NCBI RefSeq assembly: GCF_900107995.1
Contig: NZ_FNUM01000001.1
Location: 197,695 to 261,694, forward strand
Reading direction: 5' to 3'
Origin: Alcanivorax sp. DSM 26293
GTDB taxonomy: Bacteria > Pseudomonadota > Gammaproteobacteria > Pseudomonadales > Alcanivoracaceae
DNA length: 64,000 nucleotides
In this document: positions 38,331-63,660 of the stretch, in pieces
Position numbering within the stretch: the first letter of the stretch is position 1
Layout of the letters: each line of letters starts with the position of its first letter
Translations under genes and position numbers: made by a program
Notes under the pieces: model-generated
Databases searched by the model: none
Told to the model about the DNA's origin: nothing
What the model saw: the letters and a program-made list of their open reading frames with translations, nothing else

Positions 38331-38428
38331 AGTTGATAGTGGACAGTTGACAGCTAAACCCCCGAAACCCTATCACGTGGCCGCTGGTTTTTAGCTGTCA
38401 ACTTTTAACTGTCCACTGTCAACTATCA
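38331..38428. repeat. Inverted heptad-repeat pair between mazG and relA (AGTTGAC family)
   Basis: Arm 1 (38331-38356) is AGTTGAT, AGTGGAC, AGTTGAC, AGCTA. Arm 2 (38392-38428) is its complement with one extra heptad (AGTTAAA). Arm 2 includes the TGA stop codon of relA. The 35-bp spacer has no strong hairpin. Confidence 0.92.
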
Positions 38429-40663
38429 TTTCTTATACCGCCGCACCTCAAGCACGCCCTTCAACTGGTCCATCTTGGCCAGCACCTTGCCCAGGTTGCC
38501 GAGGGTGGCGATTTCCAGGGTGAGGAGCATGGTGGCGGTGTTGTCGTCCTGGTGGGACTGGGTGTGAACGGCGGTGACGTTGACCTTTTCGTTGGCCAGT
38601 ACCGCGATCACGTCCTTGAGCAATCCCTGACGGTCCCAGGCGCGCAGGAAGATATCCACCGGGTAGGTGATGCGGTCGGCTTCCCCCCAGGTGACTTCGA
38701 TCACCCGGTTGGGGTCGTCGCCCTGCATGGCCAGCAGTTTTTCGCAGTCGGCCCGGTGCACCGTGACACCGCGGCCGTGGGTAATGAACCCCATCACCGG
38801 GTCGCCGGGAACCGGCTGGCAGCAACCGGCCATGTGGGTCAGCAGGTTGCCCACGCCCTGAATGGTCACATCGCCGGATTTCGAGGCCTTGGGCTTGGAG
38901 AGCACCAGGTCCAGCTCCCGCTGGCTGTCGTCCGGCTGCAGGGACTGGACCTGGTTGACCACATGCCCCGGGCGCAGGTCACCAGCCCCCAGGGCCGCCA
39001 GCACATCGTCGCCGGTCTTCAGATTCAGGTGCGGTGCCAGGGTATCCAGGTCCACCTTTTCCAGGGCCAGGCGGGACATCTCCTTTTCGAGCATGGCCTT
39101 GCCCTGAGTGATGTGCACGTCACGATCCTGGCGCTTGAACCACTGGTGGATGCGCGCCCGCGCCGAAGAGGTGGCCACATAGCCCAGTGACGGCGTCAAC
39201 CAGTCGCGGCTGGGGCCGCCCTCCTTGGCAGTGAGGATGGTGACCTGCTCGCCGGTGTTGAGGGTGTAGTTGAGCGGCACGATGTGGCCGTTGATCTTGG
39301 CTCCCCGGCAGCGGTGCCCCACTTCGGTATGGATGTGATAGGCAAAGTCCACCGGGGTGGCGCCGGCCTCCAGGTCCACCACGTGGCCATCCGGGGTGAA
39401 CACATAGACCCGGTCGCTGACCAGGCCATGGCGCAGCTCGTCCACCATGGTGTCCGGGCTGTCCTCGCCCAGCTCCTCATGCCATTCGAGTACCTGGCGT
39501 AGCCAGGCAATCCGCTGTTCGTAGTCGCTGACACCGCTCTTGCCCTTCTTGGCGCCTTCCTTGTAACGCCAGTGGGCACAGACGCCCAACTCCGCCTCTT
39601 CGTGCATGGTGAAGGTACGGATCTGAACTTCCAGCATCTTGCGTTCCGGGCCCACCACCGCCGTGTGCAGGCTCTGGTAGCCGTTGGCCTTGGGGCTGGC
39701 GATATAGTCGTCGAATTCCTTGGGCACGTGTTGCCACAGGGAATGGACGATGCCCAGGGTGGCGTAGCAGTCGCGCAGCTCCGGCACCAGTACCCGCACG
39801 GCGCGCACGTCATAGACTTCGCCGAATTCCAGATGCTTTTTCTGCATCTTCCGCCAGATGCTGTAGATATGCTTGGCCCGGCCGTGGACTTCGGCGCCGT
39901 GGATGCCGTTTTTCTCCAGGTAGCCACGCAGTTGCTCCAACACATTGTCGATGTACTGTTCCCGGTCCAGGCGTTTTTCATCCAGCAGCTTGGCGATCTT
40001 CTTGTAGGCGCCGGGTTGCAGATAGCGGAAGGACAGGTCCTCCAGCTCCCACTTGAGCTGCCCGACCCCGAGTCGATGGGCCAGGGGCGCATAGATATCG
40101 AAGATTTCCTGGGCCACCTTGCGCTGACGCTCGGGCTCGGATTCCTTCACGGCGCGGATGATCACGGTCCGCTCGGCCAGCTTCACCAGGGCCACGCGCA
40201 CGTCGTCGACCATGGCCACCAGCATTTTGCGCATGTTGTCGAGCTGGCCGTCCTGCTGGCCGAGCACGGCCTTGCGGGTAGGGTTCAGGTTGGTGCTGAT
40301 GGCCGCCATGCGCAGCACGCCTTCGATCAGGCGGGCCACGTCCGGGCCGAATTCCTTTTCCACTTCCGGCAGGGACATCTGCCCTTCGCGCACGGAGCGG
40401 TAAAGGATGGCTGCGGGCAGCACATCGGTGTCGGTGCCCAGATCCACCAGCACTTCGGCCATTTCCAGGCCGATATCCAGGCAGCCCTTACCGTAAGGCC
40501 AGTGGCGACCGGCCGCTTCCCCGGCCATCTGACACTGTTCCGCCCGCTCACAGGCCTGCTCCAGTGCCTCGCCGTTGCGTACCGGGGCCCGGGTGTCCAG
40601 GTTCGCCAGCCAGTCACGCCAGTGACCGGTGGTGCCTTCTGTGGGACGGCGTACCGTTACCAT
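38426..40663 (-). CDS. relA: GTP pyrophosphokinase RelA
   Basis: 745 residues from the ATG at 40663 (AAGGA RBS; N-terminus MVTVRR as in RelA proteins). The frame opens further upstream at 40738 without a good RBS. Domains: degenerate HD pseudo-hydrolase (about 30-190), ppGpp synthetase with FDDYIASPKANGYQSLHTAVVG near 300-322, TGS (VYVFTPDGHVVDLEAGATPVDFAYHIHTEVG near 410-440), a Zn-finger-like region GCCQPVPGDPVMGFITHGRG near 625-650, and a C-terminal ACT domain. It makes (p)ppGpp on stalled ribosomes. HD residues needed for hydrolysis are absent, so it is RelA rather than SpoT. Confidence 0.97.
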   Translation of the reverse strand: MVTVRRPTEGTTGHWRDWLANLDTRAPVRNGEALEQACERAEQCQMAGEAAGRHWPYGKGCLDIGLEMAEVLVDLGTDTDVLPAAILYRSVREGQMSLPEVEKEFGPDVARLIEGVLRMAAISTNLNPTRKAVLGQQDGQLDNMRKMLVAMVDDVRVALVKLAERTVIIRAVKESEPERQRKVAQEIFDIYAPLAHRLGVGQLKWELEDLSFRYLQPGAYKKIAKLLDEKRLDREQYIDNVLEQLRGYLEKNGIHGAEVHGRAKHIYSIWRKMQKKHLEFGEVYDVRAVRVLVPELRDCYATLGIVHSLWQHVPKEFDDYIASPKANGYQSLHTAVVGPERKMLEVQIRTFTMHEEAELGVCAHWRYKEGAKKGKSGVSDYEQRIAWLRQVLEWHEELGEDSPDTMVDELRHGLVSDRVYVFTPDGHVVDLEAGATPVDFAYHIHTEVGHRCRGAKINGHIVPLNYTLNTGEQVTILTAKEGGPSRDWLTPSLGYVATSSARARIHQWFKRQDRDVHITQGKAMLEKEMSRLALEKVDLDTLAPHLNLKTGDDVLAALGAGDLRPGHVVNQVQSLQPDDSQRELDLVLSKPKASKSGDVTIQGVGNLLTHMAGCCQPVPGDPVMGFITHGRGVTVHRADCEKLLAMQGDDPNRVIEVTWGEADRITYPVDIFLRAWDRQGLLKDVIAVLANEKVNVTAVHTQSHQDDNTATMLLTLEIATLGNLGKVLAKMDQLKGVLEVRRYKK

Positions 40664-40747
40664 GTGCTTTCCTTCTGGTTTAGGTGGCGAGCCAAGGCTG
40701 AAGCCACCCTCGTTGGCGCCTGAAGAGTCTGGCGTCAACGGCTCACA

Positions 40748-42088
40748 TCATTTCTTTTCGAACACCGCGATGGATTCCACGTGGGTGGTGTGGGGGAACA
40801 TGTCCATCACCCCCGCCGCTTTAAGACGGTATCCCAGGGCGGTGAGTTCCCCGGCATCGCGGGCCAGGGTGGCCGGGTTGCAGGACACATAGACGATCCG
40901 CTTTGCACCAAACCGGGGCATCAATTTCACCATCTCCAGCGCGCCGGTGCGCGGTGGGTCAATCAGGATACGATCATATTTGCGATTGGCCCAGCTCTGC
41001 CCGGCCACATCCTGACTCAGATCCCAGGCGTGGAATTCCAGGTTTTCCAGGCCATTGCGGCGGGCATTCTCGTAGCCGCGCTCCACCATGGCCTTGCTGA
41101 CTTCCACCCCGACCACCTTGCCGGCCCGCTTTGCGGCCGGAATGGTGAAATTGCCCAGGCCACAAAACAGGTCGAGCACGGTGTCATCGGGGGAGATATC
41201 CAGCAAATCCAGTGCCAAGGGCACCATCTTGCGGTTGATCTCCGCGTTGACCTGGGTGAAGTCCGTGGGGTGAAAGGCCAGCTCCACATCGGCGGAGGGG
41301 TGGCGGTAGTACAGGCGCTCCTCGTTCTCCGCCCCGGTGAGGGCCGGCCAGATGCGGTGCACGGTGCTTTCGTTGCCCGGTTGCAGGTACAGGTGCCAGC
41401 CCAGCGGCTGACAGAAATCCAGGAAGGCCTGCTGGTCTTCATCGGGCAGCGGGTCCAGATGGCGGATGATCAGCGCCACATCCTCATCGCCGGCGGCCAG
41501 TTCGATCTGCGGGATGCGGCTGCGACTCTTGAGGCCGTGCATCAGGGTACGCAGATCGGAGAGGCGATGGCCCACGGACGGAATCAGCACTTCGCACTGC
41601 TGCAGCTGGGCGATGAAACTGTTGCGCTTTTCCCGGAAGCCCACCAGGGTTTCGTCCTTGGCTTCCACATATTTCACGCCCATGCGGGCCTTGCTGCGAT
41701 AGCCGGTGACCGGGCCACTGAGTGGCGGCAGCCATTCCTTCGGCGCCAGACCCCCAAAGTGCTGGAGCTGCTCACGCAGTACCGCTTCCTTGCGGGCGAT
41801 CTGCACGTCCGGGTTCATGTGTTGCAGGCTGCAGCCGCCGCACAGGGTGCTGTGCTGGCAAGGGGGCTCCACCCGATCCGGGGAGGCACGCACGATCTCC
41901 ACCGCCTTGCCCTCGTCGAACTTGCGGCGCATGTAGGTGAACTTGAACATCACCTCTTCGCCGGGCAGGGCGTTGTCGATAAAGGTGGTCTTGCCATCAC
42001 GACGGGCAATGCCGCGGCCGTCGTGGCTGAGCGATTCAATGCTGGCGGGCTCCGGGGTTTCCGGTAACTGCTTGCGTTTTCGGGCCAT
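40748..42088 (-). CDS. rlmD: 23S rRNA (uracil(1939)-C(5))-methyltransferase RlmD
   Basis: 446 residues: an N-terminal TRAM RNA-binding domain (about 14-72), an Fe-S cluster in PCQHSTLCGGCSLQH (about 76-90) and a SAM methyltransferase domain (DLFCGLGNFTIPAAK near 300, ILIDPPRTGAL near 375, catalytic Cys in VSCNPATLARD near 402). It methylates U1939 of 23S rRNA. Conserved neighbour of relA and cysM. Confidence 0.96.
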   Translation of the reverse strand: MARKRKQLPETPEPASIESLSHDGRGIARRDGKTTFIDNALPGEEVMFKFTYMRRKFDEGKAVEIVRASPDRVEPPCQHSTLCGGCSLQHMNPDVQIARKEAVLREQLQHFGGLAPKEWLPPLSGPVTGYRSKARMGVKYVEAKDETLVGFREKRNSFIAQLQQCEVLIPSVGHRLSDLRTLMHGLKSRSRIPQIELAAGDEDVALIIRHLDPLPDEDQQAFLDFCQPLGWHLYLQPGNESTVHRIWPALTGAENEERLYYRHPSADVELAFHPTDFTQVNAEINRKMVPLALDLLDISPDDTVLDLFCGLGNFTIPAAKRAGKVVGVEVSKAMVERGYENARRNGLENLEFHAWDLSQDVAGQSWANRKYDRILIDPPRTGALEMVKLMPRFGAKRIVYVSCNPATLARDAGELTALGYRLKAAGVMDMFPHTTHVESIAVFEKK

Positions 42089-42100
42089 AATTCCAAATCA

Positions 42101-42263
42101 TAGTTGACAGTTGATAGTGGACAGTTGACAGCTACGCGATAGAAGTTTCAGTGACAGAAATGCCAGGGGCCGCGCGGAAAGTCTGAACGCGGCCTCTTGC
42201 CATCCAGATCCAACCCGCGTTGCCCGCGACGCTGTCAACTGTTAACTATCAACTGTCAACTGA
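42101..42263. repeat. Inverted heptad-repeat element with GC hairpin core (AGTTGAC family)
   Basis: Arm 1 42101-42133 and arm 2 42231-42263 are inverted. Between them 42166-42200 forms a GC stem (GGGGCCGCG... CGCGGCCTC). Arm 2 encodes the last residues (SVDS) and the TGA stop of the exonuclease gene. Confidence 0.92.
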
Positions 42264-43028
42264 TGTCCAGGCTTCCAGGAAGCCCAGAAAGTGCGGATGG
42301 CCTTCGGCTTTCAGGTAGTCCTGCAACAGGGTCAATTCCTGTTCGTAGCCGGTGGGGTCCAGCTCGCCGCGCATCAGCTGGAAGCGCAGGTAGACCAGCC
42401 AGGTGTTGAGCACATCGGTCTCGCAGTAATCACGAATACCCTTGAGGTTGCCTTCCTGGAAGGCGTCGAACACCTTGCCGCCGCTCATGCCCATCTTGCC
42501 GGGGAAGCCCAGCAAGGTGGCGATCTGGTCCAGCGGGGCGTTGGCCCGGGCGTTGAACAGGGCCAGCTGGTCCATCAGGTCCAGGTGGCGCTGGTGGTAA
42601 CGGCTCAGGTAATTGTTCCATTTGAAGCTGGAGTCTTCGTTACCGGTTTCCCAGTAACGGCGGGCCTGCACACCATGCTTGAGGGCACGGTAATGCAGCA
42701 CCGGCAGATCGAAGCCACCACCGTTCCAGCTCACCAGATTCGGGGTAAAGCGGTCGATACCGTCGTAGAAGCGCTCGATCAGCTCTTTCTCACTACTGTC
42801 CTCGTCCCCCAGGGACCAGACCTTGATGCCCTGGGTGGAGCGCAGCACCACAGAGATGGCAACGATGCGATGCAAATGCAGGCGCAGGAATTCGGTGCCG
42901 TTTTCCTGGCGGCGCAGATTCAACAGGGCACTGGCGGTGTCCTTGTCACTGAGGCCATCCAGATCGTAAATGCGGCGTCCGCCGTCCAGATCGGGGATGG
43001 TTTCGATGTCGAATACCAGTACGTTCAT
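42249..43028 (-). CDS. 3'-5' exonuclease, PolB-related (DNA_pol_B_exo2 family)
   Basis: 259 residues with DEDDy exonuclease motifs: VLVFDIETIPD (Exo I, N-terminus), SWNGGGFDLPVLHYRAL near 100 (Exo II) and YCETDVLNTWLVYL near 198 (Exo III). It is a stand-alone predicted 3'-5' exonuclease of unknown pathway, found next to cysM in several gammaproteobacteria. The C-terminal four residues are encoded by the adjacent heptad repeat. Confidence 0.9.
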   Translation of the reverse strand: MNVLVFDIETIPDLDGGRRIYDLDGLSDKDTASALLNLRRQENGTEFLRLHLHRIVAISVVLRSTQGIKVWSLGDEDSSEKELIERFYDGIDRFTPNLVSWNGGGFDLPVLHYRALKHGVQARRYWETGNEDSSFKWNNYLSRYHQRHLDLMDQLALFNARANAPLDQIATLLGFPGKMGMSGGKVFDAFQEGNLKGIRDYCETDVLNTWLVYLRFQLMRGELDPTGYEQELTLLQDYLKAEGHPHFLGFLEAWTSVDS

Positions 43029-43078
43029 TCAGCTCTCCAAAATGGCAAGGGCCCGCTTTAGGTGGCGGGCATCCAGCG

Positions 43079-43984
43079 TCAGGCTTGTTGCTGGAACACC
43101 CCGGTGGACAGGTAACGGTCGCCACGGTCGCAGATGATGGCCACGATGACGGCGTTCTCCAGTTCTTCGCTCAGGCGCAAGGCCCCGGCCACGGCACCGC
43201 CGGAGGAGACACCACAGCTGATACCCTCTTCCCGGGCCAGCCGGCGCATGGTGTGCTCGGCCAGGGCCTGATCCATGTCGATGACCCGGTCCACCCGGGA
43301 ATCATCGTAGATGGACGGCAGGTACTCCTTCGGCCAGCGACGGATGCCGGGAATGGAAGAGCCTTCGGTGGGTTGCAGACCGATGATCTGGATCGCCGGG
43401 TTCTGTTCCTTCAGGAACATGCTGCAGCCCATGATGGTGCCGGTGGTGCCCATGGAACTGACAAAATGGGTAACGCCACCCTGGGTATCGCGCCAGATTT
43501 CCGGGCCGGTGCTTTCGTAATGGGCCATGGGATTGTCCGGGTTGGCGAACTGGTCCAGCACCCTGCCCTCACCCCGGGCCTGCATGGCCTGGGCCAGATC
43601 TCGGGCGCCTTCCATGCCTTCTTCCTTGCTCACGGAAATCAGCTCGGCGCCGTAGGCAGCCATGGCGTCGCGGCGTTCCTGGCTCTGGTTGGCGGGCATG
43701 ATCAGTTTCATGCGGTAGCCGCGCATGGCAGCGGCCATGGCCAGGGCAATGCCGGTGTTACCACTGGTGGCTTCGATCAGGGTATCGCCGGGCTTGATCT
43801 CTCCGCGAGCCTCGGCCTTCATGATCATATTCAGGGCCGGGCGATCTTTCACCGAGCCTGCCGGATTGTTGCCTTCCAGCTTCACCAGAATGGTATTGGT
43901 GGTGTCGCCCGGCATCCGCTGCAGGCGAACCAGGGGCGTATTGCCCACGGTCTGTTCGATGGTTTTATGGTTCATGGCGCGCAT
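43079..43984 (-). CDS. cysM: Cysteine synthase B (O-acetylserine/thiosulfate sulfhydrylase) CysM
   Basis: About 301 residues. The frame extends to 44113 but the upstream part runs through a repeat. ATG at 43984 has AGG 7 bp upstream; ATG at 43975 (MNHKTIEQTVGNTPL) is the other candidate. The PLP lysine is in GNNPAGSVKDRPALNM near 45, the substrate loop TSGNTGIALAMAA near 75. The PLP phosphate loop SSMGTTGTIMG near 180 and SGGAVAGAL near 265 complete the set. It makes cysteine or S-sulfocysteine from O-acetylserine. Confidence 0.95.
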   Translation of the reverse strand: MRAMNHKTIEQTVGNTPLVRLQRMPGDTTNTILVKLEGNNPAGSVKDRPALNMIMKAEARGEIKPGDTLIEATSGNTGIALAMAAAMRGYRMKLIMPANQSQERRDAMAAYGAELISVSKEEGMEGARDLAQAMQARGEGRVLDQFANPDNPMAHYESTGPEIWRDTQGGVTHFVSSMGTTGTIMGCSMFLKEQNPAIQIIGLQPTEGSSIPGIRRWPKEYLPSIYDDSRVDRVIDMDQALAEHTMRRLAREEGISCGVSSGGAVAGALRLSEELENAVIVAIICDRGDRYLSTGVFQQQA

Positions 43985-44031
43985 TGTACCTAAAAGCTGG
44001 CACGGGGGAGACTCCCCAAAGGTGATCACTA

Positions 44032-44110
44032 CAGGAGCGAGGTACGAGGAGCGAGTTACGAAAAGCAAAACCGGTTTTATGCCTTTCGCTCCCCGTAACT
44101 CGTACCTCGA
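44032..44110. repeat. Inverted heptad-repeat pair between cysM and gacS (ACGAG family)
   Basis: Arm 1 44032-44066 reads as 7-bp units (AGGTACG, AGGAGCG, AGTTACG); arm 2 (44084-44110) is the inverse. The element fills the part of the 325-bp divergent gap 43985-44309 nearest cysM; 44111-44309 shows no repeat and should hold the gacS promoter. Confidence 0.85.
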
Positions 44111-44309
44111 CACTCTATTCCATAGCCATACACGACTGATGCCAGCGAAAAAGCGGCTCTGATACCGATGAGTCCAACAACAACAGGCGTTTTCTCCGTG
44201 TCCTCTGTGGCCTCAGCGGTGAAACAGGGTTCGGCAAAATGGCCGGGTTCGTGGCAGTGACCGGCATCTCGGGCATAATGGGCGAAAACAACAGCAACGA
44301 CGGGGATTC

Positions 44310-47018: not shown

Positions 47019-47074
47019 TTTCGCGTCGCGACGCGGGCTCGACCGTGCAGGCTCGAGGTGCGTTGCCCGCGTTT

Positions 47075-47148
47075 GTAGGAGCGGCGCTCGCAGCGCGATT
47101 GGGGCCACCAGTACCCCCTCACCCGTTGGAGCCATGCTCGCATGGCGA
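47075..47148 (+). repeat. Two single REP elements downstream of gacS
   Basis: GTAGGAGCGG-CGCTCG-CAGCGCGATT (47075-47100) and GTTGGAGCCATGCTCGCATGGCGAA in two halves (47124-47148). A perfect palindrome CGCGTCGCGACGCG (47022-47035) directly follows the gacS stop. These and the element at 47242 fill most of the 324-bp gap 47019-47342 between gacS and pdxJ. Confidence 0.75.
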
Positions 47149-47241
47149 ATAGGGTTGGGGTGGTACGAACCCGGTGTTACCTGGATGACCTGTCGAGCCC
47201 TGAGATTCCTGATCGCCCTGCGGTCAATTCCGTGCTTCGCA

Positions 47242-47285: not shown

Positions 47286-47342
47286 ATTCCAGTATCAGGG
47301 AAACTTTTCGACCCTTCTTAATCCTATCAGTGTGGCTTGTAG

Positions 47343-48112: not shown

Positions 48113-48255
48113 GTAGGAGCCATGCTCGCATGGCGGAAATTACAGTCGCGAGGAACGAGTCACGAGAAGCGAAAGGCATAAACCCTCTTTTGCCCTTCGC
48201 AACTCGCTCCTCGTAACTCGCTTCTGATCTTTACCCTGCAAGCATGGCTCCTACA
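48113..48255. repeat. Nested palindrome: REP arms around a heptad-repeat pair
   Basis: Outer arms are inverted GTAGGAGCCATGC REP copies at 48113-48136 and 48238-48255. Inside lies an inverted heptad pair of the AGTCACG/AGAAGCG type (48144-48177 and 48193-48226). The whole is one long near-symmetrical structure between recO stop and pdxJ start. Confidence 0.9.
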
Positions 48256-48261
48256 ACGGAT

Positions 48262-48933: not shown

Positions 48934-48940
48934 GGGGGCT

Positions 48941-49102
48941 GTTGAAAGTTCAAAGTTTAAAGTTTAAAAGCACGGAATAGCCCGGCAGTCACAGCCAGGC
49001 CATGCCCGCGACTCACCCGGCATAGAAGCGCGGAGAACCGTCTTCATGATACGCAACAGGCTTGTCCGCGCGCTTCAACTTTGAACTTTAAACTTTCAAC
49101 TC
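48941..49102. repeat. Inverted heptad-repeat element (AGTTTAA family) between recO and era
   Basis: Arm 1 48941-48970 has units AGTTCAA, AGTTTAA, AGTTTAA; arm 2 49073-49102 is its inverse. Arm 2 contains the TGA stop codon of era (49096-49098). The spacer contains GCGGAGAACCG but no clear core hairpin. Confidence 0.9.
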
Positions 49103-50004
49103 CTCTCGTCATAGCCAAGGGAACGCAGGGCCCGGGCATCATCGGACCAGCCGGCCTTGATCTTCACCCACAGGTTCAGCATTACCTTGCGCTCGATAAG
49201 ACGCTCGATATCTTCCCGGGCCTGGGTGCCAATCTGCTTGATGCGATCACCGCCGTCGCCAATAAGAATCTTTTTCTGGCCACGGCGCTCCACCAGGATG
49301 GCAGCGGAGATTTCGGTGATACGGGGGCCGTCTTCCCACATTTCCACTTCCACGCTGACCTGGTGGGGAAGCTCCTGGCCCAGCTGGCGCACCACTTTCT
49401 CCCGAATGATTTCTGCCGCCATAAAACGCAGACTGCGGTCGGTGAGCTGATCTTCGTCGTACCAGAATTCGCCTTCCGGCAAACGCTCTACCAGCGCTGT
49501 TTCCAGCGCTTCCAAGTTCTGCTCTCGCAGCGCAGATACCGGCACGACCGCATCAAAGGGATAACGCTCGCTGAGAGTCTCGATATGTGGCAGCAGCTGG
49601 GCCTTGTCGTCCAGGCTGTCTACCTTGTTGATGATCAGCAGCACCGGCATTTCCGGGTGCTGTGGCAACAGTGACAGCACATGCTCGTCCGCCGGAGTCC
49701 ACTTGAGGCCGTCCACCATCATGCAGACCACATCCACCCCGCTGAGCGTGGAAACCGCAGCGTCGTTCATGGCCCGGTTGAGAGCCCGGTCCTGGCCGGT
49801 ATGGATACCGGGGGTGTCGGCAAAAATGATCTGGTAGTGATCCCGGGTATGAATACCGTGGATGCGGTGCCGGGTGGTTTGCGGCTTACGCGAAGTAATG
49901 CTGACCTTTTGCCCGATCAGGTGATTCATCAGGGTGGACTTGCCCACATTGGGCCGGCCAACGATGGACACCATGCCACAGCGGGTCGGTTTTACGTCAG
50001 TCAT
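49096..50004 (-). CDS. era: GTPase Era
   Basis: 302 residues: G1 IVGRPNVGKSTLMN near 15, G3 DTPGIHTG near 63, G4 LLIINKVD near 125, and a C-terminal KH domain (GQKKILIGDGGDRIKQIG near 235). It matures 16S rRNA and helps 30S assembly. It overlaps rnc by 8 bp. The last codon and stop (AGT TGA) belong to a heptad repeat. Confidence 0.97.
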   Translation of the reverse strand: MTDVKPTRCGMVSIVGRPNVGKSTLMNHLIGQKVSITSRKPQTTRHRIHGIHTRDHYQIIFADTPGIHTGQDRALNRAMNDAAVSTLSGVDVVCMMVDGLKWTPADEHVLSLLPQHPEMPVLLIINKVDSLDDKAQLLPHIETLSERYPFDAVVPVSALREQNLEALETALVERLPEGEFWYDEDQLTDRSLRFMAAEIIREKVVRQLGQELPHQVSVEVEMWEDGPRITEISAAILVERRGQKKILIGDGGDRIKQIGTQAREDIERLIERKVMLNLWVKIKAGWSDDARALRSLGYDERS

Positions 50005-53799: not shown

Positions 53800-53880
53800 A
53801 GTTGCGAGGCGCGAGTCACGAGAAGCGAAAGGCACACGGCCGGTTCTGCTGTTCGTTACTCGCTCCTCGTGACTCGCGAC
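53800..53880. repeat. Inverted heptad-repeat pair between lepA and mucD (AGTCACG family)
   Basis: Arm 1 53800-53832 reads AGTTGCG, AGGCGCG, AGTCACG, AGAAGCG in 7-bp steps; arm 2 53854-53880 is its inverse with an 11-bp perfect stem CGAGTCACGAG/CTCGTGACTCG. It occupies most of the gap between the mucD stop and the lepA start. Confidence 0.9.
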
Positions 53881-55373: not shown

Positions 55374-55385
55374 TGGGCTCTCCTT

Positions 55386-56827: not shown

Positions 56828-56830
56828 CCG

Positions 56831-57397
56831 TTAGCGGGCTCCACTGCGGGCATCCATACTCACCAGACGGGCAAAAGGCATCATCCCCTGACCGCTGTTG
56901 CGGGCAGCAAACTCACTGTGCCGCAGGAGCATATCGTTACCGCGGGGCTGAACCTGGGCCGCCGGCGTGACCACCGCATTGTTGGCGGTGAAAGACCGGG
57001 ATACCAGCGACGCCTCGGCAAACGGGCGGCTCATGCGGCTGTCCTGGGCCGACGCCATCACCGGCGCAGCACCGGAAGACTGGGTCGCATCCCAGCTCTG
57101 CCAGCCCACCACCGTGGCAGCAGCCACAGAGGCGGCAACAGCCAGCCGGCTCACACTGCCCAACCAGGCCGGACGACGGGACGGCGCCTGCTCAGCCGCC
57201 AGCGCCGCAGACAGGCTGGCATTGAAGCCCGCCGGCACACTCATGGTGGACTGCTTATGCATCACATCCCGGGCCAGCTGCCAGCGGGACAATGCATCCA
57301 GATCCGCATTGTCGATATCACGCATGACCCGACGGGTTTCCAGCTCGCTGGTTTCCCCGTCAAGGAAAGCGGACAGTGTTTCCAGGTCCCTGTTCAT
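56831..57397 (-). CDS. rseA: Anti-sigma-E factor RseA/MucA
   Basis: 188 residues from the ATG at 57397 (GGGTG-type RBS; the frame opens earlier within rpoE). The N-terminal anti-sigma domain (MNRDLETLSAFLDGETSELE, WQLARDVM near 40) binds RpoE. One membrane helix lies at about 85-105 and the periplasmic tail binds RseB. It holds the sigma factor inactive at the inner membrane until proteolysis. Confidence 0.93.
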   Translation of the reverse strand: MNRDLETLSAFLDGETSELETRRVMRDIDNADLDALSRWQLARDVMHKQSTMSVPAGFNASLSAALAAEQAPSRRPAWLGSVSRLAVAASVAAATVVGWQSWDATQSSGAAPVMASAQDSRMSRPFAEASLVSRSFTANNAVVTPAAQVQPRGNDMLLRHSEFAARNSGQGMMPFARLVSMDARSGAR

Positions 57398-57401
57398 ACA
57401 C

Positions 57402-57986
57402 TCACCCTTTGTCGCCACGCTGGGAGCCCAGCAGTGGGCGCACAGCATTATCAATTGCTTCCCGAGCCCGGAAGATACGGGAACGAACCGTACCCACCGG
57501 ACACTCCATTACCGCCGCAATGTCCTCATAGCTGAGGCCCTCGAATTCCCGCAGGGTAACGGCAGTTTTCAGTTCATGGGGCAGCTCATCAATGGCTTCA
57601 TGGATAACTGCCTCTAACTCCTGTGACAACACGAGGGACTCCGGGGTTCCAATCTCGTGCAGCATTTCTGCTCCGGCATATTGCTCGGCCTCGGCCGCAT
57701 CCAGGTCGGAACCCGGCGGACGCCGACCAGCGGCCACCAAATGGTTCTTGGCGGTATTCACGGCAATACGATAAAGCCAGGTGTAAAAGGCACTGTCACC
57801 CCGGAAACGGGGCAACGCACGCCAGGCTTTGAGAAAGGCTTCCTGGGCCACGTCCTGCACTTCATCCGAGTCACGCACGTAACGGCTGATCAGGGCGAAA
57901 ATACGCTGCTGATATTTGCGTACCAGCACTTCAAAGGCACGCTGATCGCCGGTTTTGGCTTTCTTGACCAACTCTTCGTCTGACAC
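57402..57986 (-). CDS. rpoE: RNA polymerase sigma factor RpoE/AlgU
   Basis: 194-residue ECF sigma factor: region 2 (QDVAQEAFLKAWRALPRFRG near 45-64, AFYTWLYRIAVNTAKNHL) and region 4 (FEGLSYEDIAAVMECPVGTVRSRIFRARE near 150-178). It directs the envelope-stress regulon. Transcribed first in rpoE-rseA-rseB-rseC-mucD. The 208-bp gap to divergent nadB should hold both promoters. I found no clear sigma-E box for autoregulation. Confidence 0.96.
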   Translation of the reverse strand: MSDEELVKKAKTGDQRAFEVLVRKYQQRIFALISRYVRDSDEVQDVAQEAFLKAWRALPRFRGDSAFYTWLYRIAVNTAKNHLVAAGRRPPGSDLDAAEAEQYAGAEMLHEIGTPESLVLSQELEAVIHEAIDELPHELKTAVTLREFEGLSYEDIAAVMECPVGTVRSRIFRAREAIDNAVRPLLGSQRGDKG

Positions 57987-58194
57987 CGATCCCCCGGATC
58001 TTTCGCGAAACGCGGATACATGGCTGTGGTCGCATCGGAACCCGGGTTGCCGAGGTGAATGGGCAAATCGGGTCTATGACCAATTAAAGCGGGCCATTGT
58101 AGCAGGTGTGAGGGTCCCGGCTATACTATGGGGCTGTTTTGCCTACCCATTTCACATTGCTTGAACATTTGTTCGGGCGTTCTAAGGATTGTTC

Positions 58195-59811
58195 ATGGCC
58201 ACCTTCCGACACGATGTACTCATCATTGGTTCCGGAGCGGCAGGATTAACCACCGCCCTGCGCCTGCCCGATGATTGCCGGATCGCCCTGTTGTCCAAAG
58301 GCGAGCTGACCAGCGCCAGCACCTATTACGCCCAGGGCGGCGTCGCCGCGGTGCTGGACCAGGAAGATTCCCTGGAAAGTCACGTGGCCGATACGCACGT
58401 GGCCGGGGGTGGCCTGTGCCATGATGACGCGGTCCGTTACACGGTGGAAAACGGCCCGGATGCGATCCGCTGGCTGATCGATCTGGGGGTGGATTTCACC
58501 CGACTGACCGGCGATAACGACAGCGCCCTGCCCTACCACCTGACCCGTGAGGGCGGGCACAGCCACCGCCGCATCATTCATGCCGCCGACGCCACCGGCA
58601 AGGCCATCTCCGGCACCCTGATCGGCCAGGTGCGTAAAAAAGACAACGTGACCCGCTTCGAATATCGGGTGGCCGTGGACCTGATCCTGCAGGAGCACAA
58701 CGGCCCCAACGGGCAAAAAGGCAAAGAAAAGCGCTGCTGCGGCGCCTATGTGCACAATATCGAGACCGGCGAAACCGACGTCATTCTGGCCAGAGCCGTG
58801 GTGCTGGCCACCGGCGGCGCCTCCAAGGTCTACCTGTATACGTCCAATCCGGATGTGGCCACCGGCGACGGCATCGCCATGGCCTGGCGGGCCGGCTGCC
58901 GGGTGGCCAACATGGAATTCATGCAGTTCCACCCCACCTGCCTGTACCACCCCAAGGCCAAAAGTTTTCTGGTCACCGAGGCCATTCGCGGCGAAGGTGG
59001 GCACCTGCTGTTGCCCAGCGGTGAGCGCTTCATGCATCGCTTTGATGAACGCGGAGAACTGGCCCCCCGGGACGTGGTGGCCCGCGCCATCGACCATGAA
59101 ATGAAGCGCCTGGGGGCGGACTGTCTGTATCTGGATATCAGCCACAAGCCGGCGGATTTCATTATCGAGCACTTCCCCACCGTCTACGCCAAGTGTCTGC
59201 AACTGGGCCTGGATATCACCCGTGACCCCATGCCGGTGGTGCCCGCCGCCCACTACACCTGCGGCGGCGTTATGATCAACGAAAACGGCCAGACCGATGT
59301 GCCCGGTCTTTACGCCATCGGCGAAACCAGCTTCACCGGCCTGCACGGCGCCAACCGCATGGCCAGCAACTCCCTGCTGGAGTGTCTGGTCTATGGCAAG
59401 GCCTCAGCCGAACATATCGGCGCCACCCTGGCCGACGTGCCGGAACCCCGCGAGCACAAGGAATGGGATGAATCCCAGGTCACCGATTCCGACGAGGACG
59501 TGGTGATCAGCCATAACTGGGATGAACTGCGCCGCTTCATGTGGGATTACGTGGGTATCGTGCGCACGGAAAAACGCCTGGAGCGGGCCCTGCACCGGGC
59601 CGAGCTGCTGAGAAACGAAATCGCCGAGTATTACAGCAACTATCACATCAGCAACGACCTGCTGGAGCTGCGCAACCTGGTGGTGATCGCCGAACTCATC
59701 ATCCGCTCCGCCATGCAACGCAAGGAAAGTCGGGGGCTGCATTTCATGCGCGATTATCCCGGCACGAATGACGAGGTGGTGGATACGGTGTTGACACCGC
59801 CAATCAGTTGA
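58195..59811 (+). CDS. nadB: L-aspartate oxidase NadB
   Basis: 538 residues from the ATG at 58195 (AAGGA 7 bp upstream; TTG at 58189 is in frame but weaker). FAD-binding motif [17 protein letters not shown] near 8-24, succinate dehydrogenase/fumarate reductase-like active site [13 protein letters not shown] near 120-133, HYTCGGV near 355 and [18 protein letters not shown] near 385-402. It oxidises aspartate to iminoaspartate for quinolinate and NAD synthesis. Divergent from rpoE, as in Pseudomonas. The stop codon comes from a heptad repeat. Confidence 0.97.
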
Positions 59812-59971
59812 CAGTTGATAGTGGACAGTTGACAGCTAAAACCCGCGATTGAGGTTTCCTGTTTCAGAACGCAAGAGGCCGCGCCCACCGTTTTGGCGCG
59901 GTCTCTTGCGTTTCAAATTTCACTCATTCCGTATCGCGCCGCTGTCAACTGTCCACTATCAACTGTCAACT
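59806..59971. repeat. Inverted heptad-repeat element with GC hairpin core (AGTTGAC family)
   Basis: Arm 1 59806-59837 and arm 2 59941-59971 are near-perfect inverses. The core hairpin 59869-59912 has a long stem starting ACGCAAGAGGCCGCGCC. The element joins the convergent genes nadB and ygfX and supplies both stop codons (TGA at 59809 and, on the minus strand, at 59966-59968). Confidence 0.95.
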
Positions 59972-60361
59972 ATGTTTCCTGTTCGTCCACAGCCACTGAT
60001 AAAAGGGCTGCAGCTGCGCCCGGGGGGCCTGGTCGTCGAACAGGTGCAACCAGCCTTTCGGGGTCTGGATGGCCATCCAGGGGCCGACGCGCAGTACCCG
60101 GCGAGGTTGTTCCAGTTCCTGCCAGTGACGGCCGATGAGGGTGAGACCCTGTTCGTGGAGTTCCATCTGGGACAGCTGCGGCGGCTGCCAGCCCCGCACA
60201 AGCAGCGGTAACGCCAGCAATAGCAGCACCAGCGCCCACCAGGGCATTTGCGTCAGCAGGATTGCCGGCACCACCCCAATCACCGCCAGCCACTTCAGCC
60301 GGGCGGGATAGCGGGACGGGGTCAGCTCAAGCTTTTTTCGCGGAGACCAGGGCAAGGACAT
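59966..60361 (-). CDS. ygfX: YgfX family inner-membrane protein
   Basis: 131 residues from the ATG at 60361; the open frame extends further inside sdhE. Basic N-terminus (SLPWSPRKKLELTPSRYPARL), two adjacent membrane helices (about 25-62) and a C-terminal strand-rich part with GPWMAIQTPKGWLHLF. YgfX (CptA) is the usual partner of SdhE; a toxin role was proposed in E. coli but is debated. It overlaps sdhE by 35 bp, as is normal. The final Ser and stop are encoded in a heptad repeat. Confidence 0.85.
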   Translation of the reverse strand: MSLPWSPRKKLELTPSRYPARLKWLAVIGVVPAILLTQMPWWALVLLLLALPLLVRGWQPPQLSQMELHEQGLTLIGRHWQELEQPRRVLRVGPWMAIQTPKGWLHLFDDQAPRAQLQPFYQWLWTNRKHS

Positions 60362-60584
60362 GGCGTACATACTCGCGCAGCGCCGGGTCTTGCGGCTCAC
60401 TGCGATAGGTAAACCACTCGAACATGTCGGCATCTTCGCAGGCGAGCAGCTTGGCGAACCAGGCCTGATGCTCCGCCGAGTCGTTATCGAAATGATCATC
60501 CAGGTAACCGTACAGCACCACCTCCACTTCCGAGGCGCCGCGGCGGCACTGCCAACGATACTTGCGTTTCAGGTCTTCACTCAT
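60327..60584 (-). CDS. sdhE: FAD assembly factor SdhE
   Basis: 85 residues from the ATG at 60584. The RGxxE motif is present as RRGASEVEVVL (about 12-22), with CEDADMFEWF (about 50-59). It helps attach FAD covalently to the SdhA flavoprotein subunit of succinate dehydrogenase. Small helical cytoplasmic protein; its 3' end overlaps ygfX. Confidence 0.93.
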   Translation of the reverse strand: MSEDLKRKYRWQCRRGASEVEVVLYGYLDDHFDNDSAEHQAWFAKLLACEDADMFEWFTYRSEPQDPALREYVRHVLALVSAKKA

Positions 60585-60701
60585 GCATTGCTTGCCGTAT
60601 CTTCCAGACTGAGCCTGCATTATCTATCATGTCCGATGATTTCTCATTCCCGATGTGGTGAAGTGCGAGCCTCATTTCGAATGGTGTGCTGTTAACGGGT
60701 T

Positions 60702-60729
60702 GTTGGGGCCTTGCTGGCAAGGCTCCTAC
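60702..60729 (+). repeat. REP-like palindrome between sdhE and ygfZ
   Basis: GTTGGGGCCTTGC-TGG-CAAGGCTCCTAC is an imperfect palindrome of the REP type in the 214-bp divergent gap. No further signal is evident in the gap apart from the ygfZ RBS. Confidence 0.65.
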
Positions 60730-60798
60730 GATCTTCAACATTGCGACTATATGCACCATTATTCGCCCCTTCGCGACAGTCCGTTTCACAGGAGCCCC

Positions 60799-61737
60799 AT
60801 GAGCTGGTCCGATTTTATCGCCACCCAAGACCTGACCGACAGCGCCCAAGCCCCCTATCTGAGCCATTGCGACCACCTTGCCGTCATCCGCGCCCACGGC
60901 GAGGAAGCGGGCCACTATTTGCAGGGCCAGGTGTCCTGCGACCTGCGTGAAGTGGACCAACAGTGCCACCGCACCGGTATGCACCTGACTCTGAAAGGAC
61001 GCGGCCTGGTCAGCGTACGCATTGTCCGTGACGGCGACGACTATCTGCTGCTCTGTCCTGCCGGCCTGAGCGAGGCGGTGATCAAGGCACTGATGAAATA
61101 CCGGCTTCGCGCCAAGGTGGAATTCACCGTGGACCCGAATCTCGTGGTGTTGGGTCTGGCCGGTCATCTCCCCGCCTCGGTCCCTGATCACGGCAACAGC
61201 GCCGAGACCGATCAGGGCCTGTGGCTGCGTTACCCCTTCACCGACCACGCCCTGCTGATCGTGCCGCAGGACAACGCCGAGCCGGTCTGGCAGACCCTGG
61301 CCAGCGACCGGGCGCTTACCCGCGCCAATGGCTGGCAGCTGGCCGACATCGACGCCGGTGAGGGCATGGTTTACCCGGGCTCGGAAGATCTGTTTCTGCC
61401 CCAGGTGCTCAATTACGACGTCACCGCCGGAGTGAACTTCAAGAAGGGCTGCTACACCGGCCAGGAAGTCGTCGCCCGCATGCACTTCAAGGGCAAGCTC
61501 AAGCAGCGTATGCAGCGGATCGACTACACCGCGGACGTGGACCTGTTGCCGGGCGAAACCCTGCGCGACAGCAACGGCAAAGCCGCCGGCGAAGTGGTCA
61601 GCGCTGCCCGCACCCCACAGGGCCGTGCTGCGTTGGTGGTTCTGCGTCGGGATACGGATGGCGTGCTGTTCCGGGATGAACAGGCCCTGGACAGCCAGTT
61701 GGGAGCACTGCCCTACTCATTGCCGTGGAAAGAGTGA
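60799..61737 (+). CDS. ygfZ: tRNA-modifying folate-binding protein YgfZ
   Basis: 312 residues from the ATG at 60799, with AGGAG 5 bp upstream. GcvT-like fold with LQGQVSCDLREV near 42-53 and the diagnostic KGCYTGQEVVARMHFKG motif near 216-232 with its conserved Cys. It takes part in folate-dependent Fe-S cluster maintenance and tRNA modification (MiaB partner). Divergent from sdhE-ygfX, as in Pseudomonas. Confidence 0.95.
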   Translation: MSWSDFIATQDLTDSAQAPYLSHCDHLAVIRAHGEEAGHYLQGQVSCDLREVDQQCHRTGMHLTLKGRGLVSVRIVRDGDDYLLLCPAGLSEAVIKALMKYRLRAKVEFTVDPNLVVLGLAGHLPASVPDHGNSAETDQGLWLRYPFTDHALLIVPQDNAEPVWQTLASDRALTRANGWQLADIDAGEGMVYPGSEDLFLPQVLNYDVTAGVNFKKGCYTGQEVVARMHFKGKLKQRMQRIDYTADVDLLPGETLRDSNGKAAGEVVSAARTPQGRAALVVLRRDTDGVLFRDEQALDSQLGALPYSLPWKE

Positions 61738-61742
61738 GAATT

Positions 61743-61834
61743 CAGTTAAAAGTTAACAGCGACGCGGGCTCGCATCGTTGCGGCTTTCAAACGTAAGAGG
61801 CCGCGCCCAGGCATTGGGCGCGGCCTTTTACGTT
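61743..61834. repeat. Heptad arm plus GC hairpin core after ygfZ
   Basis: A heptad arm AGTTAAA-AGTTAAC-AGC (61744-61760) is followed by a strong hairpin (61789-61834) whose stem begins AACGTAAGAGGCCGCGCCCA. The matching second arm is missing here and appears instead at 62341-62375, beyond a block of other repeats. Confidence 0.88.
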
Positions 61835-61860
61835 GTTAAGCAGGAAATCGGGCATGGCGG

Positions 61861-61937
61861 TAGGGTGTACTGAGCCTACGAACTGCACCATCAAACGCCG
61901 GCTCGGTGCAGTTCGCCTTAGGCTCAGTGCACCCTAC
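61861..61937. repeat. Long palindrome, GTGCACCCTA family
   Basis: Arms 61861-61889 and 61906-61937 are inverted (TAGGGTG-ACTGAGCCTA.. against ..TAGGCTCAGTGCACCCTA) with a 16-bp loop. It belongs to none of the REP or heptad families described elsewhere in the window. Confidence 0.88.
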
Positions 61938-61969
61938 GAAAACCTGAATCGGCGGTTGCCGCCCTCTCC

Positions 61970-62255
61970 GTAGGAGCGTCGCTGGCGGCGCAATCACCAG
62001 GTATCGACAAGGCCGATGCAGGAGTTCCGATTGAGGGACGAATCCGAGCCTTGGCGAGGAAAAAGGCGATGTGGATGTCACATGGCCACTCTGGAGAGCC
62101 CGATTGCTCTGCTGCTCCGGACCGAATCAGGGGTAGATCGGCGGATGATTTCCACGCTGACGCGTGGTTCGTCCCTCAAGCGGAACTCCTACAGTGGCTT
62201 CGTCATAAACATGCGGGCATGACTCTAGTGATCGCGCCGCCAGCGACGCTCCTAC
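61970..62255. repeat. Nested REP pairs (GTAGGAGC outside, GTAGGAGTTC inside)
   Basis: Outer REPs 61970-61998 and 62228-62255 are inverted copies of GTAGGAGCGTCGCTGGCGGCGC. Inner REPs 62018-62044 and 62165-62204 are inverted copies of the GTAGGAGTTC..GGGACGAA family. The middle, 62045-62164, shows no gene. This is part of the 636-bp gene-free gap 61738-62373. Confidence 0.88.
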
Positions 62256-62270
62256 GGAGAGCCCCCCCTT

Positions 62271-62375
62271 ACGCAAAAAGCCGTGCCCAAACATTGGACG
62301 CGGCCTCTTGCGGGGCAAAACCGGAAACCCCGTTTCGCGCGCTGTTAACTGTTCACTATTAACTGTTAACTGATC
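62271..62375. repeat. GC hairpin core plus heptad arm before the enoyl-CoA hydratase-like gene end
   Basis: Core hairpin 62271-62312 (GCCGTGCCCAA against TTGGACGCGGC) followed by a heptad arm 62341-62375 (on the minus strand AGTTAAC, AGTTAAT, AGTGAAC, AGTTAAC). The arm touches the TGA stop of the minus-strand gene at 62374. Confidence 0.9.
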
Positions 62376-63483
62376 AATCCAGCTCTGCCAGCGGGTGCTT
62401 CGGCGCCGGGCACCGGAAGAAGCCCTCAATATACGACCGGGGTACATCGTTGACGCTGCGGTGGCGGAAGGCCGGTTTGCCATCCTTGTCGATCAACAGG
62501 GCGCGCACCCCTTCGCGGAAGTCGCCGTGCAGGGAACACTGCACTGCCAGACACCATTCCATGCGGAAAATATCGGCCAGGGACAGATAGGTGGACCGGG
62601 CCAGCTGCTCCCAGACCAGGTGTGCGGTTTGCGGGCAGCCCCGCTCCAGGTTACCCAGCGCCTTGTCCAGCCAGCTGTCGCGATCCTTCGCGGCGAGCAA
62701 CTGCTCCACCACCACTGGCAAGGTCTCGCCATCGCACAGGCGATTGATCTGCGGCAGGTGATCAATCAGTGGATGATTCAGCTCACTCATGTCAGCGGCC
62801 TGCTGCTTGAACAGACGATACAGCACGGCCCGGTTGTCGGTGACATCATCGGCAAATGCCTGCTCTGCCAACGCCGCCAGCAGGGACTCTGCATCGCCAT
62901 CCACCATGCGGTCGGCCATGCCGATTTCCACCGCTTCACGACCGTTGATGTGCACGCCGGTCAAGCCCAGGAACAACCCGGCCCGGCCCGGCAGCCGGTT
63001 CAGGAACCAGCTGCCGCCCACATCCGGGAACAGACCGATGGTGATTTCCGGCATGGCCATGCGTGAGCGCGATGTCACCAGGCGGAAATCCGCGCCCTGC
63101 AGCAGCCCCATGCCGCCCCCCATGACGATGCCATCACCGAACACCACCACCGGAATCCGGCTGGTGTGGATGCGGTAATCCAGGGCGTATTCCTCGGCGA
63201 AATACTGCTCGGTAAAGGGGTTTCTGCCTTCCCCGGCATGTTTCACCATGGACTTGTGCATCTGCACGATGTCACCGCCGGCACAGAAGGCCTTGCCTCC
63301 GGCCCCATCCAGCCAGATCGCTACCACATCATCACGCTGCTCCCACTGATCCATCTGCTGGCTCAGGGCCTGGATCATTTCCAGGCTCAGGGCATTGAGC
63401 GCCTTGGGGGCATTCAGGGTAGCGCGGGCGATCACTCGACCGCAGCGGGTTTCGATTTCGGAAAACAACACGCAGTCAGACAC
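62374..63483 (-). CDS. Enoyl-CoA hydratase/isomerase family, 3-hydroxyisobutyryl-CoA hydrolase-like
   Basis: 369 residues, longer than plain enoyl-CoA hydratases and matching the HIBYL-CoA hydrolase group. Crotonase oxyanion-hole motifs AFCAGGDIVQMHK near 65 and GDGIVMGGGMGLLQGADFR near 112-130, and catalytic Glu in MAMPEITIGLFPDVGGSWFL near 142-160. It probably cleaves 3-hydroxyisobutyryl-CoA in valine breakdown, though other short acyl-CoA substrates are possible. It is not linked to other valine genes here. Confidence 0.9.
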   Translation of the reverse strand: MSDCVLFSEIETRCGRVIARATLNAPKALNALSLEMIQALSQQMDQWEQRDDVVAIWLDGAGGKAFCAGGDIVQMHKSMVKHAGEGRNPFTEQYFAEEYALDYRIHTSRIPVVVFGDGIVMGGGMGLLQGADFRLVTSRSRMAMPEITIGLFPDVGGSWFLNRLPGRAGLFLGLTGVHINGREAVEIGMADRMVDGDAESLLAALAEQAFADDVTDNRAVLYRLFKQQAADMSELNHPLIDHLPQINRLCDGETLPVVVEQLLAAKDRDSWLDKALGNLERGCPQTAHLVWEQLARSTYLSLADIFRMEWCLAVQCSLHGDFREGVRALLIDKDGKPAFRHRSVNDVPRSYIEGFFRCPAPKHPLAELD

Positions 63484-63499
63484 GAAAACTCCATAAAGC

Positions 63500-63660
63500 A
63501 GTGAATAGTTAATAGTGAACAGTTAACAGCGCGCGGGCTAGCGTCGCTGATGTTCACAGCCAAGAGGCCGCGCCAACATTCTGGGCGCGGCCTCTTGGGC
63601 TGAGAAACAACAGAATCTCTCGCGAGCTATTCACTGTTAACTGTTCACTATTAACTGATC
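63500..63660. repeat. Inverted heptad-repeat element with GC hairpin core (AGTTAAC family)
   Basis: Arm 1 63500-63530, arm 2 63627-63660, core hairpin 63557-63600 with stem CCAAGAGGCCGCGCC. Arm 2 provides the TAA stop codon of ung and its preceding Ser codon. It lies between the ung stop and the start of the crotonase-family gene. Confidence 0.94.

Follow-up and report, generated by a model that had tools for sequence, protein, structure and literature searches.

Inverted arms of four tandem heptads at gene 3' ends in Alcanivorax and its near kin

The over-representation of heptamers in bacterial genomes lacks a settled reason, and hairpins in which one repeated word has been swapped for another may help to explain it. 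Here, we consider a 64-kb stretch of DNA (called the window, at its full length) from an Alcanivorax-like bacterium, in which intergenic elements made of two inverted arms of tandem 7-bp units (heptads) lie at the 3' ends of genes. The closest described system is that of Xanthomonas, in which GGGAATC heptamers favour runs of four units (Rehm et al., 2015; PMC4692102); statements made here about published work refer to the available part of each text. Convergently oriented GGGAATC pairs number 70 in Xcc and 75 in Xac, the repeats lie near or over stop codons and are under-represented between divergent genes, and in two species they mostly sit between corresponding genes, varying in length and sequence; most are transcribed, and Rehm et al. 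related the four units to G-quadruplexes (PMC4692102). The inverted-arm form had been taken to be undescribed in the original prediction, made from the letters of the window, and these published pairs contradict that claim. In the P6b region of the trnL intron of Nostoc, degenerate heptads pair into a hairpin within the transcribed intron, and their copy number varies (PMC3488679). The TAACTGA repeats of marine Beggiatoaceae are direct repeats, with 169 direct sets and one indirect set, mostly located just upstream of start codons (MacGregor, 2015; PMC4679880). Inverted DNA-uptake motifs, enriched in tail-to-tail gaps, have been inferred to act as terminators (Kingsford et al., 2007; PMC1852404), and stable intergenic stem-loops in general favour 3' ends and convergent gaps (PMC1590033). 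In the literature, we recognized no paper on these heptad elements in Alcanivorax, and they are not mentioned in the text examined of a paper on the small RNAs of A. dieselolei (PMC9788540).

The host is Alcanivorax-like: the nearest named relatives of its PdxJ protein come from Alcanivorax hongdengensis (84%) and Alloalcanivorax xenomutans (82%), in a comparison from which very near records may have been excluded. Its genome (G000; other G numbers denote relatives, and L numbers fetched loci) comprises 3.7 Mb in 22 contigs. By Pfam domains, the window region contains relA, an rlmD-type methyltransferase gene, a barA-like kinase gene, pdxJ, recO, era and a mucD-like protease gene, the names of these genes being inferred. 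Genes were called with a codon-usage script, which recovered the Pfam-checked genes of the window, some with shifted starts. The elements share an architecture and an arm length, carry arms of a single subfamily and lie at gene 3' ends or stop codons; their core is present across the genus at one gene, and their arms have changed on both sides with pairing kept. We read those of the A type as 3'-end hairpins that are old in Alcanivorax and its near kin, have been inherited largely by vertical descent and probably act in RNA, and give this reading, which draws on sequence comparison, a probability of about one half.

Architecture, abundance and position of the elements

Arrays were sought in the window as stretches of 28 nt in which 15 or more of 21 bases agreed with the one seven positions further along. 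This test returned 14 period-7 arrays and five inverted pairs, exceeding the 0–2 arrays and no pairs of 20 dinucleotide shuffles; a comparison with shuffled DNA had been proposed, genome-wide, in the original prediction. Periods 4–6 and 8–12 gave no inverted pairs; periods 9 and 12 gave 19 and 48 arrays under looser absolute thresholds. Degenerate 7-mer arms are legible at all nine places first cited for them; the family C pairs at 44032, 48144 and 53800 are detected only at a looser threshold (13/21), and no test called a pair at 61743/62341, where the left arm is weak. The idea that such pairs fill most intergenic gaps holds for the housekeeping block, with a pair in 8 of the 13 gaps of at least 100 bp between 37 and 64 kb (looser test; nine if 61738–62373 is counted by eye), and fails for the rest, with paired heptads in 0 of the 12 such gaps of positions 1–37000. 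The description of the heptads as AG followed mostly by pyrimidines was wrong, as AGTTGAC, AGTTAAC, AGTCACG and AGCTACA are all mixed. At least four families had been proposed, and more were found: AGTTGAC, AGTTAAC, AATTGAT, AATTAAT, AGTTTAA/AGTTGAA, AAGTTGC, AGTCACG, AGCTACA and AGCTTCT, plus GTCTGAC/GTCGGAC in G004. Four close genomes were compared, and this last family, with inverted arms at L190 11755–11874, was seen in G004 alone.

In the whole genome, the pattern AGTKRAY x4, with up to three mismatches, occurs at 262 places, versus 81 for the reversed pattern, an unclean control because reversed AGTKRAY can spell the AATTGAT subfamily. Twenty stretches of 20 kb, several of which were placed around arms, contained 28 period-7 pairs, one pair each of periods 6 and 9, and none of periods 5, 8 and 10. 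Stretches of G000 not selected for elements gave 12 pairs in 164 kb, and unselected stretches of 12 other family genomes gave 0 to 12.5 pairs per 100 kb. The pattern is present in 26 of 46 family genomes and in three of eight genera. Three near-identical elements lie about 8.4 to 8.6 kb apart in G004 (L207 2154, 10541 and 19112), perhaps in a duplicated gene block. A chromosome-linked orientation in the same genome, suggested because the matches listed between 1.18 and 2.99 Mb were all of + strand arms, was rejected because good − strand arms lie there (e.g. L197 6023).

Ninety-eight elements were gathered from family genomes; the A-type set numbers 113, with orthologues counted separately and some loci fetched by core. 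Element length, flanks included, peaks at 165–180 nt in the 98 elements, and family A elements measure about 160 bp. The layout of a long element is a four-heptad arm, AGC or AAC, a few bases, CGCG, about 20 variable bases, a core, about 20 variable bases, CGCG and the second arm. The core is a GC-rich hairpin, AACGCAAGAGGCCGCGCCCA-N6-TGGGCGCGGCCTCTTGCGTT, found in 88 of the 113 A-type elements (again, some had been fetched by it) and in none of the shuffled interiors. The inner distance between arms has a median of 105 nt, and 83 of the 88 core-bearing A-type elements fall between 95 and 115 nt. A shorter A form has AAAACC...GGTTTT inside (by eye). The short elements of family C, with AGTCACG arms, have a median length of 86 bp; this family has a weaker link to 3' ends and may be a separate class.

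Arm length is narrowly distributed: in a scan requiring only three heptads, exactly four (28 nt) were counted in 97 left and 100 right arms of the 113 A-type elements, with the longest arms reaching 11. An alternative count gave four units in 166 of 196 arms by a method that returns no fewer than four, and the three-heptad scan is therefore fairer. Among the 101 A-type elements whose arms are complete (12 of 113 excluded), 100 have left and right arms of the same subfamily, versus a mean of 42 and a maximum of 57 in shuffles; over all families, the two arms share a family in 91 of 98 elements. The A subfamilies AGTTGAC, AGTTAAC, AATTGAT and AATTAAT differ at heptad positions 2, 5 and 7, and the same core is carried with any of these arms and, in G004, with AGCTTCT-type arms (L201 12259). 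The spacers of about 20 nt are nearly unrelated between loci (0.447 versus 0.385 shuffled, 26 elements) and alike between orthologues. Subfamilies as lineages with spacers of their own were hardly supported, spacer likeness being 0.428 within the same subfamily and 0.416 between different ones. Copying between the two arms was not supported either, with a likeness of 0.891 within elements versus 0.908 between elements of a subfamily (p = 1.0), and of 0.835 versus 0.848 (p = 0.94).

The elements are associated with gene 3' ends. A tally of 76 rows, in which two elements were counted twice, placed 34 in convergent, 38 in tandem and four in divergent gaps, versus 90, 260 and 106 among gaps of at least 60 bp. 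An arm end lies within 25 nt of a gene 3' end in 13/14 A1, 31/34 A2, 8/9 B and 5/9 C elements, and within 25 nt of a gene 5' end in two A1, eight A2 and four B elements. A period-7 block lies near 108 of 761 gene 3' ends, and the stop codon is inside the block in 49 cases (e.g. ...cagtTGAcagttgat). In convergent gaps of at least 100 bp, 29 of 66 (G000) and 42 of 80 (G004) 3' ends have an array, fractions that are inflated because the stretches were partly chosen around arms; the corresponding figures for 5' ends in divergent gaps are 3/92 and 3/96, and periods 6 and 8 are almost absent from the same gene ends. The provision of backup stops in all frames was considered as a reason for the period of seven, and arms do raise it (2.23 versus 0.91 of 3), yet family C/D heptads read outward from the gene without stops. 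The GGGAATC heptad, by our own reading, likewise contains no stop codon, and backup stops are therefore not the general reason for period 7.

The same gap in different species

Of 30 genomes, 24 had a readable recO/pdxJ gap, the heptad content of which varies. The arms there are AGTCACG in the source genome, AGCTACA in G003, G012, G014 and G015, GCTAGAA in G004 and G016, AAGTTAC in G005, AGTTTAA in G007, AGTTAAC in G017 and G028, and AGTTGAT in G029; the element of G017 and G028 is the same, with one arm differing in length by two heptads. Single or worn tandem arrays occupy the gap in G001, G008, G010, G011 and G013, and no heptad element was seen in it in G002, G006, G009, G022, G024, G027 and G037. 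In the window gap 59812–59965, arms are AGTTGAC in G000 and G003, AATTAAT in G004 and AGTTAAC in G016, and three further window gaps differ more among G003, G004 and G016; four other occupied gaps were compared with G004 alone. The pairing of arms and the presence of different families at equivalent positions, both proposed from the window, were thus borne out by related genomes, in which orthologous gaps hold another family or none.

Downstream of a gene that we take to be DUF2333-like, and that in most genomes is convergent with a conserved neighbour, the core is found in 17 of 17 genus genomes, plus G018 and G028, with four arm subfamilies; it is absent there in G020 and G034. The arms are A1 in G010 and G018, A2 in G004–G007, G009, G013, G015, G016 and G028, A3 in G002, G003, G011 and G012, and A4 in G000, G008 and G014, and G001 keeps the core with no clear arms. 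The spacers are alike in G000, G004 and G016 (by eye) despite A4, A2 and A2 arms. In an arm-pair change test on the 11 of 19 sequences with complete or near-complete arms (10 distinct, eight dropped), 91.9% of cells pair and 15 of 31 pairs have changed on both sides; two-sided changed cells number 40, versus 15.5 in shuffled sequences and 0–7 in slid controls. The interior of the element at the DUF2333-like locus seems to be reversed between species (by eye), in G006, G007 and G009 versus G005, G013 and G015, and in G012 versus G002, G003 and G011. This reversed interior (L746–L763, L785; pair L749/L755) resembles an invertible segment, the comparison being one between species.

Behind another gene, presumably of AraC type, an armed element is present in G000 (A1), G012 (A3), G004 (A2) and G005 (A4), whereas G006 and G009 have a bare core followed by a T run. 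A T run is clear in these armless cores and in L129 8683.

Elements of the window

The elements of the window are unstranded unless a strand is given. A short A1 element at 38324–38436, with AGTTGAC arms around AAACC...GGTTTT (pair 38324/38393), lies between the open reading frame (ORF) 37482–38273 and relA; the orthologous gap of G004 has a long AGTTAAC element instead. A long A1 element at 42097–42265, with arms at 42102–42138 and 42225–42261 and a diverged core at about 42164–42199, sits at the 3' end of an exonuclease gene (42249–43028, − strand). Short family C elements lie at 44033–44109 (AGGTACG/AGGAGCG arms, from an inverted-repeat reading and the looser pair test), at 48145–48224 (AGTCACG arms, in the pdxJ/recO gap) and at 53802–53879 (AGTCACG arms, in the lepA/mucD gap). 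The first of these is not present in the orthologous gap of G004, and the last was not found in the orthologous gaps of G003, G004 and G016. The element at 48145 is flanked by two inverted GTAGGAGCC...GGCTCCTAC palindromes (48115–48255) resembling repetitive extragenic palindromes (REPs), as if it lay inside a bacterial interspersed mosaic element (BIME; by eye).

A family B element at 48936–49105 (AGTTTAA/AGTTCAA arms, paired by the strict test) has the era stop codon within its right arm. The long A1 element at 59802–59975 fills a convergent gap; its arms, at 59806–59836 and 59941–59971, are 100% complementary, and its core hairpin, at 59868–59912 and present in the RNA fold, has core matches in 17 of 17 genus genomes. 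In a convergent gap further on, an A2 element has a weak left arm at 61744–61760, under the strict array threshold, and a right arm at 62342–62371 that passes the strict array test. A core hairpin at 61790–61834, recognized as an inverted repeat, is terminator-like on the − strand (site 61826–61798), and a second core-like hairpin, at 62274–62312, precedes the right arm and is touched by a terminator-like site at 62299–62285. With these two hairpins and other inverted repeats (61964–62261) between the arms, the region 61744–62372 may hold two elements or one that has been interrupted. The long A2 element at 63496–63660 (AGTTAAC/AGTGAAT arms, paired by the strict test), with its core hairpin at 63560–63598, present in the RNA fold, lies at the 3' end of a gene at 63651–63968 on the − strand and is shared with G003, G004 and G016.

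Arms of the AGCTACA type had been proposed at the start of the window and at the end of pdxJ; arrays do occur at both places, each of them single. The first (1–85) is a perfect tandem array, TTGTAGC x12, adjoining the 3' end of ORF 91–1863 (− strand); it is unpaired by the test used, and a 700-nt scan in L117 joins it to an array about 450 nt away. The second (47330) is a weak period-7 array (13/21). In L117 (17591–17792), the TTGTAGC array runs across 10 N, with about 24 units in total, and the assembly gap is probably due to the repeat. A 118-bp unit is repeated 4.3 times at 31642–32149, with REP-like palindromes CGTTGGAGCCTTGCTCGCAAGGCG. The REP-like GTAGGAGC/GTTGGAGC palindromes of the genome are sequences distinct from the heptad elements.

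Possible role, other explanations and known systems

The predicted RNA folds are stable, with −102.2 kcal/mol for element 59802 (z −14.7) and −88.1 kcal/mol for element 63496 (z −10.9); the window has no Rfam match above the gathering threshold. The central GC-rich hairpin resembles a bidirectional terminator. As 3'-end hairpins acting in RNA, the A-type elements would terminate or protect transcripts of the genes that they follow, with the core stopping those arriving from either side and the arms closing a long stem that would hinder read-through or decay. Arm pairing would be what selection keeps, and, with any heptad serving as long as the two arms match, the word could drift from one “dialect” to another. 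The location of the elements, the two-sided changes and the bare-core variants all support such a 3'-end RNA device.

Several observations weigh against this reading. A role as convergent terminators or RNA stabilizers had been suggested in the original prediction, and the location does suit a function at transcript ends, but the terminator scan itself is at background, with 18 sites in 46–64 kb versus 14.4 ± 4.6 in shuffled DNA, and three of the 18 touching elements. By eye, most armed cores are followed by a broken U run. In unselected stretches, only 6 of 39 convergent gaps of at least 100 bp hold a paired element. Five of the nine occupied gaps of the window are comparable with G003, G004 and G016, and one of these (63472–63650) holds the same element in all. 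Within a subfamily, arms are no more alike inside an element than between elements, unlike the outcome expected of inter-arm copying or of tight selection for pairing. In the arm-pair change test, further pair types number 22 versus 25.9 shuffled, one of five measures being contrary, and related sequences can exceed the shuffles of this test without structure. Behind the AraC-type gene, 12 of 18 readable genomes, several of them with another neighbour, have neither the armed element (four genomes) nor the bare core (two genomes).

It is possible, although unlikely, that the elements are mobile and comparable to miniature inverted-repeat transposable elements (MITEs), their arms being terminal inverted repeats with iterated transposase sites and their position reflecting survival at gene 3' ends, where harm is least. 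Their fixed small size between terminal inverted repeats, with the inner distance given above, would suit such an origin, as would the 12 pairs in unselected stretches of G000, the finding that close relatives have another element, or none, in a given gap, a common border context (A-rich, then GC|ARTT) and a widely dispersed core, with 77 matches in G000 (being palindromic, it is often counted on both strands). However, there is no excess of direct repeats at the 113 element borders (the best of 200 offset/length tests has a z of 2.2), and the spacers are nearly unrelated between loci yet alike between orthologues. Element 59802 has no near-identical paralogue among the matches listed for G000 (best 40 of 69 candidates) and 16 congeners; its G003 orthologue reaches 91%, and the other matches listed are core-only or partial ones near 80%. 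Element 42102 finds at best 72% over its length in G000 (best 40 of 63 candidates). One element was compared with phage records, without a match, and with plasmids, with a single 33-nt match, no search for an autonomous copy having been made. This 33-nt match (93.9%, to an A1 arm) lies at the end of a restriction subunit S gene on the cyanobacterial plasmid NC_019737.1 of Crinalium (L347 1501–1533).

A broader proposal, which we consider doubtful, is that of a sequence-independent rule, four heptads and an inverted partner at a gene end, kept in several bacterial lineages by a process rewriting all eight heptads of an element together. If this is true, the word would change with period, number, pairing and place unaltered; the repeats of Xanthomonas would be one dialect, and their quadruplex explanation would be secondary.

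The set examined outside the family comprised 2.64 Mb in 138 loci around pdxJ, from 60 of 123 other genomes of the class picked for contig room, with the Alcanivorax-type loci L031 and L032 excluded. Arrays with an inverted partner made up 7/36 for period 7, 7/259 for period 6 and 2/56 for period 8. Raw pairs numbered two for period 7, six for period 6, one for period 10, nine for period 13 (looser threshold) and none for periods 5, 8 and 11, so that period 7 stands out only by the proportion of its arrays that have a partner, not by raw counts. An L333 element and an L081 element each account for two of the seven partnered period-7 arrays, one per half, and that of L317 is inside a gene; the heptads of this set include TTAATGG (L333), AGTTTGC (L081) and TTGAACC (L110).

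An origin as a by-product of replication seems improbable; slippage would favour 7-bp units, template switching would make the inverted partners, and the 3'-end position would be a matter of survivorship. Four heptad designs are common in viral contigs (81, 66, 28 and 92 stretches); among the controls, an octad matched in its number of fixed bases gave 20 stretches, an octad fixing a further base in each unit gave 2, and a hexad gave at least 120. Partners lie within 300 nt, in inverted orientation, for 21/69, 15/64, 9/32 and 28/84 of the heptad arrays, 5/21 of the octad arrays and 1/70 of the hexad arrays, with up to 80 loci counted per design. The partnered octads, which count against a replication by-product tied to seven, mean that inverted pairing is not specific to heptads, and it looks general for 7–8-bp arrays rather than a peculiarity of this heptad. 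An explanation of heptamers by slippage goes back to Mrazek (2007, as cited in PMC4679880 and PMC4692102) and had also been raised for the window. Slippage would account for the one-arm change by two heptads between G017 and G028, for the long perfect arrays and for arms reaching 11 heptads. Arms of exactly four heptads, and a single subfamily in both arms of 100 of 101 elements, go beyond what free slippage would give, and the stop-codon location is a further point against it. Least likely of all, the arms might be arrays of binding sites for a DNA- or RNA-binding protein of drifting specificity, like the dialects of DNA-uptake sequences known in Neisseriaceae (PMC3630211), to which the fixed repeat number, the subfamilies common to many loci of a genome and the several dialects across the genus could point, but several dialects coexist in G000 and in G004.

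The natural variants at orthologous sites in about 20 genomes provide material for setting an RNA 3'-end function against slippage and transposition. REP/BIME and MITE families are not known to be composed of 7-bp tandem units. They resemble the Alcanivorax elements in being dispersed, high-copy intergenic palindromes (PMC2817692, PMC3733652, PMC10969869), but the REP/BIME palindrome, at 20–40 bp (PMC3733652), is much shorter than elements with a length peak of 165–180 bp, flanks included. The DNA-uptake terminators share an inverted, genome-wide motif and a tail-to-tail position with the elements described here, but their motif of 9–11 nt occurs once per arm, rather than as four tandem heptads (PMC1852404). 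The TAACTGA repeats are, as here, intergenic heptamer arrays in gammaproteobacteria, also found in cyanobacteria and Bacteroidetes, but they are direct and near starts, unlike those of Alcanivorax (PMC4679880). A degenerate heptad hairpin is common to Nostoc and Alcanivorax, inside an intron in the former and at gene 3' ends in the latter.

The Xanthomonas repeats share with the Alcanivorax elements the 7-nt unit, the usual four copies, the close inverted pairs, the stop-codon position and their rarity in divergent gaps. They consist of one G-rich heptad, whereas the Alcanivorax elements have many unrelated heptads, a repeated core and different subfamilies at orthologous sites, and none of 196 arms contains a G-quadruplex motif, which makes quadruplexes unlikely as the general reason for four. 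The inverted-heptad form is, thus, already known from Xanthomonas; the new features are the core, the absence of quadruplex motifs from the heptads and the change of both arms together. An inverted layout of four by seven, linked to stop codons, recurs here with many unrelated heptads lacking such motifs, and relatives retain its place and pairing with another word, which separates period, number and pairing from sequence.

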